A stretch of DNA of 64,000 nt. Source: Kineosporia corallincola (GTDB lineage Bacteria; Actinomycetota; Actinomycetes; Actinomycetales; Kineosporiaceae). The notes below the pieces were generated by a model. That model was not told the DNA's origin and did not search any database. It worked only from the letters and a program-made list of their open reading frames with translations. Numbering within the stretch: position 1 is the stretch's first letter; every line of letters begins with the position of its first letter. The stretch lies in assembly GCF_018499875.1 (NCBI RefSeq), contig NZ_JAHBAY010000005.1:496001-560000 (forward strand). The letters run 5' to 3'. Positions 15,581 to 20,289 of the stretch are shown piece by piece. The position numbers and the translations under genes are program-made.

Positions 15581-17143
15581 CTACGGCGCGAGGGGGTCCC
15601 GCACACGGAAGGAGTTGTCGGCGTGGAACTGTGCGGTCCCGTCGTCCTGGTCGACCCACAGTTCCATGTTCCGGTGCCGCAGGAACCAGCCCGGGTAGTT
15701 CTGCGCCTCCAGGGAGATCGTGCCGGGAGTGGATCCCTCACCCTGGCAGAACGTGGCGTCCCCGTGGAACAGGTCGCTTCCGTTGTCCTCGTCGGCCCGC
15801 ACCCTCCAGGATGAATGACGCAGGTATGCACCGCTGTCCAGCTGGAAGGAGAAGCAGTCGGCATCAGCCAGTCCCCGCACCACCTCGAAGGTCGCGCCCT
15901 GCCTCACCGCCGCAGCATCACCGGGTCCCGCTTCCTTCAGGATCCCGAGATCCCCGTCGATCGAAGCGAAATACCCACCGATGTCGTCGGCCTCCAACGA
16001 CGCACGACCCAGCTGGAGCGGTCCATCGGCATCCGCCCGGCCCGCGGGACTGGTCACCGCGGTCACCGGGGTGGCGCTGACCGCCGAGGAGCGCAGCGCT
16101 TTCGAGCGCTCCGGTGAGGGGGTCGGTGCCGGCGTCGGGACAGGGCTCGGGATCGAGACCACGACCGGGGGCGGCGAGGTGAACTCCGGCCAGTGTGTGA
16201 TGGTCAGAGCGGCCCCGCTCGCCACCGTGCCGGTCAGAAGCATCGCCGAGAGCGGCTTGACGGCGCCGGTCTGGAGGACGTGGGTCGCCCATCCGGCCTT
16301 GACGCCTCCCGCAGCCGTCGCGGTATCCGCCGGCATCCTGGCCAGCAGGGCGGCGGTCACGGCCACCGGAACCGGCAGGAGACCGATTCCGAGCAGCAGG
16401 TTCTCGGGCGCGATCATCTCCCGGGACGGGCCGAGGCAGATGTCGCAGGAGCGGGTGTGCCGGAGAATGCGTTTGCGCCACACCGAGCTCGGCATGCCGT
16501 CCCAGTCCCGCAGGACGACATCGAGATCGGCACAGCGGGGACGCTTTTCGACGGCGGCGGTCAGGGACCGGGCCAGTTCGAGCTGGTGATGCATCCGCTG
16601 CACCCGCACCGTGCCATGAGCCTGGCTCACCGCCAGTGCCGTCGCCAGCTCGGCACGGGTCAGCTGACCGGTCGCCTCGAGCCACCACAGGGAGAGCACG
16701 GCCTGATCGTCGGCACTCAGCCATCGGCGTGCGCGCACCAATTGGTGACGCTGGTCGGCCAGTTCGAGACGCAGTGCCGTTGTGTCCTCCAGCGGGAGGG
16801 TGGGTGGCGCCCCGGCGTCCTCCTCGCCGTCCAGGTCGTCGAACGCTGTGACGTTCGCCGCCCGCCGGGCCAGCCGGTGCCGGTGGGTGCTGATCTGGCG
16901 GATCGCGATCGCCGCCAGCCAGGCCCGGAAGCTGTCGGCCTGCCTCAGCCGGGGCAGTTCCCTCAGCGCACGCAGCATCGTCTCCTGGACGATGTCGTCG
17001 ACATCCGGACTCGGGCCCAGGGCGCGCCGGACGATGGTGTAGACGAACGGCAGGCGGGCCTGGAGGACATCCTCCAGCGCTCTCAGGTCTCCCGACCGAG
17101 CTGCAACGACACGGGATTTCTCGTCGGGGTGACTGGTCTGCAT
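15581..17143 (-). CDS. Transmembrane ECF sigma factor fused to zinc anti-sigma motif and AbfB arabinose-binding domain
   Basis: 520 residues. Sigma region 2 is at about 22-90 (VDDIVQETMLRALRELPRL). Region 4 is at about 140-195 (WLSADDQAVLSLWWLE, then AELATALAVSQAHGTVRVQRMHHQL). An H-x3-C-x2-C zinc anti-sigma motif follows (H229, C233, C236). Hydrophobic segments lie at about 247-269 and 297-316, then a Pro/Ser/Thr linker. Residues 376-520 are an AbfB (CBM42) domain, with the typical YLRHSSWRV, DATFCQG, SLEAQNYPGWFLRH and DNSFRV. The topology best places AbfB outside, if only the second hydrophobic segment spans the membrane. AbfB domains bind arabinofuranose side chains. The divergent neighbour is a xylanase/arabinofuranosidase, so this is probably a one-polypeptide arabinoxylan sensor that controls it. 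The start at 17143 is the first ATG before region 2. Confidence 0.85.
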   Translation of the reverse strand: MQTSHPDEKSRVVAARSGDLRALEDVLQARLPFVYTIVRRALGPSPDVDDIVQETMLRALRELPRLRQADSFRAWLAAIAIRQISTHRHRLARRAANVTAFDDLDGEEDAGAPPTLPLEDTTALRLELADQRHQLVRARRWLSADDQAVLSLWWLEATGQLTRAELATALAVSQAHGTVRVQRMHHQLELARSLTAAVEKRPRCADLDVVLRDWDGMPSSVWRKRILRHTRSCDICLGPSREMIAPENLLLGIGLLPVPVAVTAALLARMPADTATAAGGVKAGWATHVLQTGAVKPLSAMLLTGTVASGAALTITHWPEFTSPPPVVVSIPSPVPTPAPTPSPERSKALRSSAVSATPVTAVTSPAGRADADGPLQLGRASLEADDIGGYFASIDGDLGILKEAGPGDAAAVRQGATFEVVRGLADADCFSFQLDSGAYLRHSSWRVRADEDNGSDLFHGDATFCQGEGSTPGTISLEAQNYPGWFLRHRNMELWVDQDDGTAQFHADNSFRVRDPLAP

Positions 17144-17793: not shown

Positions 17794-20289
17794 ATGAGCT
17801 TCCCTGACGAAAGGCGGTCACTCATGTCCATCCCCGCTCCGCGCCGACGTCCGCCGTGGACCCGCCTGCGATGGCAGGCCTCGGCCGCCGCCATGGCCAC
17901 GGTTCTCGTGATCGCCGTGATGTCGGCCTTCGGTCAGTCCGCCCAGGCAGCCAACACCCTGGGCGGCTCAGCCGCAGAGAAGGGCCGCTACTTCGGCGCG
18001 GCCATCGCCGCCGGCCGGCTCAGCGACTCCACCTACAACAGCATCCTGACCCGCGAGTTCAACTCGGTGACGCCCGAGAACGAGATGAAGTGGGACGCCA
18101 CCGAACCGTCCCGGGGCTCGTTCTCGTACACCGGCGGCGACCAGATCCTCAACAAGGGCGTCTCGATGGGCGCCAGGGTCCGTGGGCATGCCCTGCTGTG
18201 GCACTCGCAGCAGCCGGGGTGGGCGCAGTCACTGTCCGGCAGCGATCTGCGCAGTGCCGCGATCAATCACGTCACCAAGGTCGCGACTCACTACAAGGGC
18301 AAGATCTACGCCTGGGACGTGGTGAACGAGGCCTTCGCCGACGGCTCCAGCGGCGCGCGGCGGGACTCCAACCTCCAGCGCACCGGAAACGACTGGATCG
18401 AGGCCGCTTTCCGGGCCGCGAGGAGCGCCGATCCGGCCGCGAAGCTGTGCTACAACGATTACAACACCGATGGCGTCAATGCCAAGTCCACCGGTGTCTA
18501 CAACATGGTCAAGGACTTCAAGGCCCGCGGCGTGCCCATCGACTGCGTGGGTTTCCAGTCCCACCTGGGCACCAGCATCCCCGGCGACTACCAGGCCAAT
18601 CTGCAACGCTTCGCCGACCTGGGCGTCGACGTGCAGATCACCGAGCTCGACGTCGCCCAGGGCTCCAACCAGGCCGGCACCTACGCCAGCGTGGTGAAGT
18701 CCTGCCTGGCGATCTCGCGGTGCACCGGCATCACCGTGTGGGGAATCCGGGACACCGATTCCTGGCGTACCGGTGAGAACCCGCTGCTGTTCGACGGTTC
18801 CGGCAACAAGAAGGCCGCCTACACCTCGGTGCTGAACGCGCTCAACGCGAGCGCAAGCGGTACCGGCAGCGGGAGTGAGGGCGGCGCGTCGCCGGTCGAC
18901 ACGAGCGCCTCGTACATCCTGGTCAACCGCAACAGCGGCAAGGCCCTGGACGTCTACAACCTGGCCACCTCGGACGGCTCCCGCATCACTCAGTGGACCA
19001 GGAACGACGGCGCCCAGCAGCAGTGGCAGTTCGTCTCCTCCGGCGACGGGTACTACCGGCTGAGGTCCCGCCACTCGGGCAAGGTTCTGGACGTCTACAA
19101 CTGGTCCACCGCCAACGGCGGGTCCATCGTGCAGTGGACCGATCTGAAGGCCGCCAACCAGGAGTTCAGCATCCAGAACCTGGACGGGTACGTCCAGCTG
19201 ATCAACCGCAACAGTGGCAAGGCGCTGGAGGTCCAGGGAGCCTCGACCGCGGACGGCGGCAACGTCGTGCAGTACGCGGACGCCAACGGCACCAACCAGC
19301 AGTGGCAGCTCGTCAAGACCGGTGCTGCCGCCCCCACCGCCACCAACGTCTCCTCGACCCCCGCGGCTTCGGCTACCAGCTCGTGCGCTCTTCCCTCGAC
19401 GTACCGCTGGAAGTCCACCGGTGCGCTGGCCACCCCCCGGTCCGGTTGGGCGTCACTGAAAGACTTCACCACCGCCCCCTACAACGGCAAGCAACTGGTC
19501 TACGCCACCACCCACGACACCGGCACGAGCTGGGGCTCGATGAACTTCAGCACCATCACGAACTGGTCCGACCTGGCAACCGCGGCCCAGAACGCGATGA
19601 GCTCCGGCGCCGTCGCCCCCTCACTGTTCTACTTCGCGCCCAAGAACATCTGGATCCTGGCCCACCAGTGGGGACCGACCAAGTTCTCCTACCGCACCTC
19701 GTCCGACCCCACCAAGGCCAACGGCTGGTCCGCCCCCCAGACCCTGTTCACCGGCACCGTCTCCGGCTCCGACACAGGCCCCATCGACCAGACCCTCATC
19801 GGTGACGGCACCACCATGTACCTGTTCTTCGCCGGCGACAACGGCAAGATCTACCGCTCCTCCATGGCCCAGGCCAACTTCCCCGGCAGCTTCGGCTCCT
19901 CCTCGACCGTGGTCCTCAGCGACACGAAGAACAACCTTTTCGAAGCTCCCCAGGTCTACAAGGTCCAAGGCAGCAACCAGTACCTGATGATCGTCGAGGC
20001 GATCGGCTCAGGCGGCCGCTACTTCCGCTCGTTCACGGCCACCAGCCTGGGCGGCACCTGGACCCCGCAGGCCGCGACCGAGAGCAACCCCTTCGCGGGC
20101 AAGGCCAACAGCGGCGCCACCTGGACCAACGACATCAGCCACGGCGAACTGATCCGGGTCAGCGCCGACCAGACCATGACCGTCGACCCCTGCAACCTGC
20201 AACTGCTCTACCAGGGCCGCTCGCCCTCCTCCGGCGGCGACTACAACCTCCTGCCCTACCGCCCGGGTCTGCTGACCTTGCAGCGCTGA
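17794..20289 (+). CDS. Secreted bifunctional GH10 xylanase - CBM13 - GH62 alpha-L-arabinofuranosidase
   Basis: 831 residues. A signal peptide (about 25-52, ending QSAQA) precedes a GH10 barrel (about 55-352). The acid/base Glu is E179 in WDVVNEA and the nucleophile is E284 in ITELDV. A Gly/Ser linker leads to a ricin-type CBM13 (about 372-508) with three QxW repeats (QQQWQF, NQEFSI, NQQWQL) and [10 protein letters not shown] blocks. A second linker joins a GH62 domain (about 531-831, [41 protein letters not shown]). GH10 cuts the xylan backbone and GH62 removes arabinofuranosyl branches, so one enzyme debranches and depolymerises arabinoxylan. The ATG at 17824 with AAAGG-type spacing is an alternative start. 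It faces the AbfB-tethered sigma factor. Confidence 0.93.

Follow-up and report, generated by a model that had tools for sequence, protein, structure and literature searches.

Can a single polypeptide sense a plant polymer outside the cell and direct transcription of the enzyme that attacks it? A locus of Kineosporia corallincola raises this question: a gene for a sigma factor fused to a predicted arabinofuranose-binding domain stands back to back with a gene for a xylanase. The locus lies in a 64,000-nucleotide stretch of contig NZ_JAHBAY010000005.1 (assembly GCF_018499875.1, positions 496,001 to 560,000), hereafter the window, and coordinates are positions within it. We find that the gene at 15581..17143 probably encodes an autoregulated, membrane-anchored, receptor-fused extracytoplasmic function (ECF) sigma factor with its own zinc anti-sigma segment, which would sense an arabinosylated polymer through an extracellular AbfB domain.

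The 520-residue protein is specified by an open reading frame on the minus strand (predicted ATG at 17143), as are all parts of it described here; a chance reading frame was considered and rejected. Residues 28–93 (16865..17062) match sigma-70 region 2 (PF04542, Sigma70_r2; E = 9.1e-14), and NCBIfam TIGR02937 covers the span of regions 2 to 4 (residues 22–184; E = 6.9e-15, 55 bits against a cut-off of 42.9). Region 4, which has no Pfam match of its own, was placed at about residues 125–192 (16568..16771, approximate limits), the TIGR02937 match reaching residue 184. A profile of the sigma/anti-sigma part, built from this protein and its three paralogues, matched the solved sigma factor 8z6g over profile positions 4–190. 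Sigma regions 1 and 3 were absent from the matches of the Pfam scan, which was not a search aimed at them. Behind the sigma regions lies the motif C204-x24-H229-x3-C233-x2-C236 (16436..16534). Zinc anti-sigma (ZAS) domains have the spacing His/Cys-x24/25-His-x3-Cys-x2-Cys, and a spacing of this type is present here. The four residues are invariant in the four paralogues and in all 35 proteins of the AbfB class; in the wider family, 110 of 119 members match the strict pattern, and all 110 carry a Cys or His 25 residues before the His.

A Pro/Ser/Thr-rich linker (16028..16186, from sequence and alignment) leads to the C-terminal AbfB/CBM42 sensor domain (residues 391–514; 15602..15973), which Pfam recognizes with E = 1.3e-35 and 122.9 bits (curated cut-off 22.8). 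Sequence comparison also pairs it with AbfB/CBM42 proteins of known structure, the anti-sigma factor RsgI5 among them (9fnk, E = 8.3e-14), with alignments to 1wd3 and 9fnk that span two repeats; on this evidence we rejected a weak or chance match. Among the 35 class members G438, L441, R442 and H443 are invariant and R489, R491, D501 and G502 nearly so. All 35 keep Cys430 and Cys466, as would suit an extracellular disulfide. The initial annotation, made from the letters alone, had described a 520-residue protein with sigma regions 2 and 4, an H-x3-C-x2-C zinc motif and a C-terminal AbfB (CBM42) domain; the analysis bears out each of these, the zinc motif in the fuller form given above.

The facing gene (17794..20289, plus strand, 831 residues), the likely target, had been described as encoding a xylanase/arabinofuranosidase, and Pfam agrees: GH10 at residues 59–348 (E = 2e-109), ricin-type repeats at 374–504, presumably the CBM13 of CAZy, and GH62 at 531–801 (E = 8.6e-150). 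Between the two genes, motif search located two copies of a promoter-like element, TGTTAT-N17-GGTCG, one facing the sigma gene (17361..17388, minus strand) and one facing the xylanase gene (17529..17556, plus strand). The expectation in the window is 0.01, and these two are the only matches in the 8.2 Mb of the organism's own genome, where the reversed-pattern control gave 0. When the divergent intergenic regions were aligned, GTTATC-N16-GGTCG stood before the GH10 gene in all four AbfB loci of the genus; two of these (L107 and L111; L and G numbers are our handles for loci and genomes) carry, like the window, one TGTTAT-N17-GGTCG copy facing each gene. Across six genomes of the genus the element has 11 matches (control 0), of which eight precede an AbfB-sigma, GH10 or GH10-GH62 gene: seven lie between an AbfB-sigma gene and its GH10 gene, and the last, in G008, stands 127 bp upstream of an unlinked GH10-GH62 gene. 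All five GH62 places in these genomes are in genes behind the element, which either follow it at once or come second on the same strand, after a GH10 gene; in G005 and G006 we found neither a GH62 nor an AbfB-class gene.

To place the protein among its relatives, we drew on 80 loci, 40 further genome regions and its own genome. The family was defined as the 119 frames scoring above 250 bits out of 127 found, leaving out seven weaker frames (L120–L126) and one of 59 bits (L131). Scanning 117 family loci (2.2 Mb plus the window) gave 13 matches to TGTTAT-N17-GGTCG, against 0–1 at spacings N13–16 and N18–21 and a mean of 0.15 (maximum 5) for 199 permuted versions of the motif. Eleven of the 13 have an AbfB-class gene within 500 bp, and a twelfth is next to L028, a fragment from the AbfB part of the tree. 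With the looser GTTA[TC]-N17-GGTCG, 21 matches have an AbfB gene nearby and one has a CAP gene nearby. A second pattern, GTTACG-N17-GCCTCC, occurs within 500 bp at 20 of the 35 AbfB loci, GTTA[TC]-N17-GGTCG at 18, and either at 27.

The own genome encodes three further paralogues, 39–43% identical to the 520-residue protein over the matched stretch, far above other ECF sigma factors. All four share the sigma/anti-sigma half and differ in their C-termini, and each lies beside a gene for a carbohydrate-active enzyme (CAZyme). The paralogue with a Pel9A-like beta-helix faces a pectinesterase-pectate lyase gene (CE8-PL1), the one with a double Lcl_C domain lies after a PL11 rhamnogalacturonan lyase gene, and the one whose C-terminal domain has no counterpart in Pfam converges on a gene that matches alginate lyase. 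An LPMO_10/CBM5_12 gene (L016:6052-6981) is found close to the Lcl_C/PL11 pair of this genome.

A related element accompanies the Pel9-type sensor. Intergenic alignment of six Pel9 loci revealed GTTAT-N16-CGACTAC before the pectinesterase gene, and TGTTAT-N16-CGACTAC has six matches in the six genus genomes (control 0), five of them before the linked CE8-PL1 gene. Its two copies in the own genome precede the divergent enzyme gene and, by 47 bp, an unlinked pectinesterase gene; G009 has a Pel9-type gene and no exact match, its site beginning GGTTAT. The Pel9-linked element thus has the same -35-like half as the AbfB element, a different -10-like half and a spacer one base shorter. The paralogues agree in region 4 around HxxVRxQRM and diverge at the end of region 2, a pattern that would suit a common -35 half and differing -10 halves. 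In the Lcl_C class CGTTAT is kept in five of six loci, with no clear second half; upstream of PL11 in L016, L108, L109, L110, L112 and L119, conserved inverted arms, AAAGGTTGCCCG ... CGGGCAACCTTTT, flank the CGTTAT block and look like a repressor operator. For the unnamed-domain class, no element was seen in a single alignment of two loci.

Several observations on the elements weigh against reading them as the promoters of this sigma factor. At L114, the fourth AbfB locus of the genus, an element faces the GH10 gene and none faces the sigma gene. Three of the 11 genus matches fall elsewhere: inside a short frame adjoining a transposase-type gene (G005) and away from any called gene (G006), both in genomes without an AbfB-class gene, and inside a gene 194 bp before an OpuAC-type gene (G009). 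The own genome holds three more GTTATC-N16-GGTCG sites, none within 700 bp before a same-strand called gene. The looser GTTA[TC]-N17-GGTCG pattern yields 29 matches in the family loci, against 1–4 when the spacing is changed and 1 when the pattern is reversed, and at eight of the 35 AbfB loci both promoter elements are missing within 500 bp. Genome-wide specificity of GTTACG-N17-GCCTCC was rejected: its 12 matches in eight whole genomes compare with 4 for the control, and one lies in a family locus. Moreover, in 13 loci, mostly Streptomyces-type (L037, L044, L129 and eight further Streptomyces-type AbfB loci, also L024 and L031), GTTA[TC]-N17-GGTCG lies 3' of the sigma gene and points back into its sensor-coding end. 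In 11 of these 13 it stands back to back, at 57–58 bases, with a GTTACG-N17-GCCTCC copy facing GH10-GH62; the back-pointing copy could serve antisense control or be a relic of an inverted gene order.

Such arrangements leave room for an explanation that we regard as unlikely, namely that the element belongs to an unrelated xylan regulator, such as a LacI-type repressor, and that the sigma factor merely resides in a xylan cluster and controls something else, as SCO4117 of Streptomyces coelicolor affects development. Local repressors are frequent at xylan genes. At L071 the GH10 gene is preceded by a CGAAAGTTTCG-type palindrome, which we take to resemble local xylan repressor operators, and the constant distance between the back-to-back elements of the 11 Streptomyces-type loci would also suit such a regulator. 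A xylan regulator would, however, hardly account for the same -35-like half, joined to another second half, before pectin genes linked to a sigma factor with a Pel9 sensor. Nor does it explain why the element also faces the sigma gene in three of the four AbfB loci of the genus (the window, L107 and L111, not L114), or why, of the three GH10 places in the own genome (the third a short, fragment-sized match), only one has the exact element in front. We consider control by the receptor-fused sigma factor more probable. The regulatory link from sigma factor to xylanase, proposed in the initial annotation, is well supported by sequence, through the element facing each gene and the pairing of sensor and enzyme; this is the part of that proposal which the analysis supports.

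An extracellular AbfB domain further demands a suitable topology. The initial annotation spoke of one or two membrane segments, correctly as worded, and hydropathy reveals two hydrophobic stretches. Segment 1 (residues 249–267; 16343..16399; mean Kyte-Doolittle (KD) hydropathy 2.34) contains LPVP, lies directly behind the zinc motif and may either end the anti-sigma domain as its final helix or cross the membrane. Segment 2 (residues 298–316; 16196..16252; mean KD 1.46), just before the linker, is a candidate membrane pass. Because the sensor can lie outside only if the chain crosses the membrane an odd number of times, we take one segment to be the membrane helix and the other to be peripheral. 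Hydropathy values do not settle which is which, and AbfB would be cytosolic if both crossed the membrane, a point that counts against our reading. It is nevertheless rather improbable, in our judgement, that both segments span the membrane and that an internal AbfB domain responds to imported arabino-oligosaccharide instead of the outside polymer. This arrangement draws on the greater hydrophobicity of segment 1, with a mean KD of 2.10 versus 1.75 for segment 2 over the 35 AbfB-class proteins, and on its being the sole segment of the window protein above the threshold of 1.6; the published passages on ECF48, ECF52 and ECF53 also allow one to two helices (PMC8999054). A second pass is not a fixed feature of the family, however: among the members listed (up to eight per class), segment 2 alone exceeds the threshold in three proteins with the unnamed domain and in four with Glyco_hydro_cc, and segment 1 alone does so in others. 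Segment 1 averages two prolines, the family's sensors are of typically secreted kinds (CAP, lyase-type helix, glycoside hydrolase) behind Pro/Ser/Thr-rich linkers, and the invariance of C430 and C466 also speaks for an outer AbfB domain.

If the outer domain is the signal input of the sigma factor, sensor type should track the neighbouring enzymes. Classes were set by clustering the C-terminal tails, and Pfam was run on one to three representatives per class. This gave AbfB (35 members), CAP (26; e.g. L068, L073 and L092, the Pfam CAP domain being found on the representative L068), a sensorless "short" class (13), Pel9 (11), Glyco_hydro_cc (11; a domain that we take to be GH128), an unnamed domain (10), Lcl_C (7), an AbfB variant (2) and fragments (4). 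The unnamed domain, conserved over about 165 residues at the C-terminus of L017, had no Pfam match in a scan of L008 and no PDB sequence match at E up to 1. Neighbours were taken from a simple gene caller, with a minimum of 150 residues for the adjacency list; the adjacent-gene alignment (A6) comprised 22 of the 25 genes next to short-class members and 16 of the 22 next to Pel9 members.

Among the 69 genes immediately adjacent to AbfB members, Pfam found GH10 in 28 and GH62 in 27. GH10 and GH62 were not among the 25 families listed, of 78, for the 72 genes adjoining CAP and Glyco_hydro_cc members, and a local search found neither within 1.5 kb of these two classes; the 72 genes include thaumatin (4) and GH6 (3). 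Within 10.5 kb, a GH10 or GH62 gene accompanies 31 of 35 AbfB members and 7 of 84 others, in the kind of survey of homologues that the initial annotation had suggested. A pectinesterase gene is near 7 of 11 Pel9 members (0 of 108 others), PL11 near 6 of 7 Lcl_C members (2 of 112 others), and an alginate-lyase-type gene near 5 of 10 unnamed-domain members (0 of 109 others). Because family members are related and raw Fisher values overstate independence, we give clustered counts. At 70% identity the AbfB link holds (8 of 10 clusters vs 1 of 29; Fisher P = 6e-6), as do those of the unnamed domain (3 of 6 vs 0 of 33; P = 0.002) and Lcl_C (2 of 3 vs 2 of 36; P = 0.02), and the Pel9 link loses significance (1 of 4 vs 0 of 35; P = 0.10); at 60% the AbfB link remains (3 of 3 vs 0 of 10; P = 0.003). 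On the other side of the balance, four of the 35 AbfB members have neither GH10 nor GH62 within 10.5 kb, and an independent-pairs test of sensor against neighbour found 2–4 pairs, too few label changes for significance. The tree of sigma/anti-sigma halves holds five changes of the AbfB label, three of them forced by well-supported branches. Gene order follows lineage, divergent in the window's genus and mostly co-directional downstream in Streptomyces. In L117 (5931-13869), AbfB-variant and Pel9-type receptor-sigma genes flank a single PL11 gene (8484-10862).

One branch of the tree, nested with AbfB members, consists of 12 sensorless proteins (L022, L023, L025, L026, L033, L039, L043, L045, L051, L027, L036 and L046) that end before segment 2 and the sensor, possibly through frameshifts, and that mostly keep a common set of enolase-superfamily, GH5 and importer genes. 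That the sigma half can persist without AbfB would suit a domain that merely tethers the cell to arabinoxylan while the sigma factor is regulated otherwise, but we judge this improbable, because sensor type tracks enzyme type in four classes, three of them (AbfB, unnamed domain, Lcl_C) with P < 0.05 at 70% clusters, and because the short branch sits in a different gene set.

For the AbfB protein as a membrane-anchored receptor, we infer the following course. Without substrate, the anti-sigma segment would keep the sigma part at the membrane, as the zinc motif and the precedents of ECF52 and IutY suggest. AbfB, judging from its domain family, would bind arabinofuranosyl side chains of arabinoxylan or arabinan outside the cell. 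In response to binding, the extension may be cleaved and the sigma half set free, the least certain of these steps. Finally, the freed sigma factor would recognize TGTTAT-N17-GGTCG, as the motif evidence suggests, and transcribe its own gene together with the divergent GH10-GH62 gene.

On a broader scale, we lean slightly towards an actinobacterial family of modular one-protein polymer receptors, in which a common sigma/anti-sigma chassis carries at least six interchangeable outer sensors (AbfB, Pel9-type helix, Lcl_C, CAP, Glyco_hydro_cc and the unnamed domain of about 165 residues). Each receptor would be wired to the enzymes for its substrate, without cross-talk, by a -35-like half common to all and a -10-like half specific to its class. 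Little is known of what receptor-fused sigma factors of actinobacteria respond to or which genes they control, and for the polysaccharide-related ECF52 and ECF53 proteins a 2024 review states that experimental validation is yet to be performed (PMC10766802). From this one locus come two promoter elements, a predicted ligand and a likely target enzyme; a relative adds an unlinked target, and a paralogue has a different predicted specificity. Polymer sensing by a single polypeptide thereby becomes directly testable. Predicted receptor/promoter pairs could also serve as parts for polysaccharide-responsive expression. New here are the pairing of paralogue sensors with CAZymes, the family-wide association of sensor and enzyme, and the promoter-like elements of fixed spacing. 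A literature search, with a narrow ECF-xylanase query and most subscription papers outside its reach, found no description of an AbfB/ECF sigma pairing.

The locus is thus real and coherent, its architecture is known and its wiring is newly inferred. The initial annotation had treated the fusion of all modules as a surprise, and we rejected the idea that the architecture is new: published work already describes fusions of sigma, anti-sigma and membrane parts for ECF48, ECF52 and ECF53, with SCO4117 as an example, and expects proteolytic release (PMC8999054; PMC5826349). SCO4117 (ECF52) has the same order of parts as the 520-residue protein, with sigma factor, zinc finger, membrane segment, Pro-rich stretch and carbohydrate-binding domain, and autoregulation has been proposed; it affects development and antibiotics, and a different motif was proposed for it (PMC5826349). 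Its sugar domain is smart00776, in contrast to AbfB here. We take smart00776 to be Pfam NPCBM, and sigma/NPCBM fusions from three genomes grouping with Streptomyces served as stand-ins for SCO4117. Against the model of the present family they scored at most 33 bits, versus more than 250 for family members (best BLASTP E to the 520-residue protein, 0.29), and ECF52 identity was rejected. ECF53 proteins are described as actinobacterial ECF sigma factors that combine a zinc finger with one or two helices and with an extension that can reach 400 residues (PMC8999054), features shared with our family, and some ECF52 and ECF53 proteins have predicted glycosyl hydrolase and carbohydrate-binding domains (PMC10766802). 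ECF53 is probably the group to which the family belongs; the passages cited from both reviews differ from the present picture in giving no ligand, target promoter or sensor-neighbour match (PMC8999054; PMC10766802). IutY of Pseudomonas putida (ECF243) likewise fuses a sigma factor to a membrane anti-sigma part, as proposed here, and is activated by cleavage, but its signal is a siderophore in a cell-surface signalling system, not a polysaccharide (PMC8999054).

The nearest functional analogue is clostridial SigI5/RsgI5, in which a CBM42 sensor is likewise coupled to membrane anti-sigma control of an alternative sigma factor. Clostridium (Acetivibrio) thermocellum belongs to another phylum. It has nine RsgI proteins with differing sensors, including CBM42, CBM3, PA14 and GH10, and RsgI5 is a membrane anti-sigma protein with a C-terminal CBM42 that controls SigI5 (PMC12203970; PMC4711584). 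That system consists of two proteins, a SigI-type sigma factor and an RsgI-type anti-sigma factor, whereas the 520-residue protein is a single polypeptide with an ECF-type sigma match and a zinc motif. The receptor family described here may accordingly be the single-polypeptide counterpart of SigI/RsgI, with CBM42 taken into use independently.

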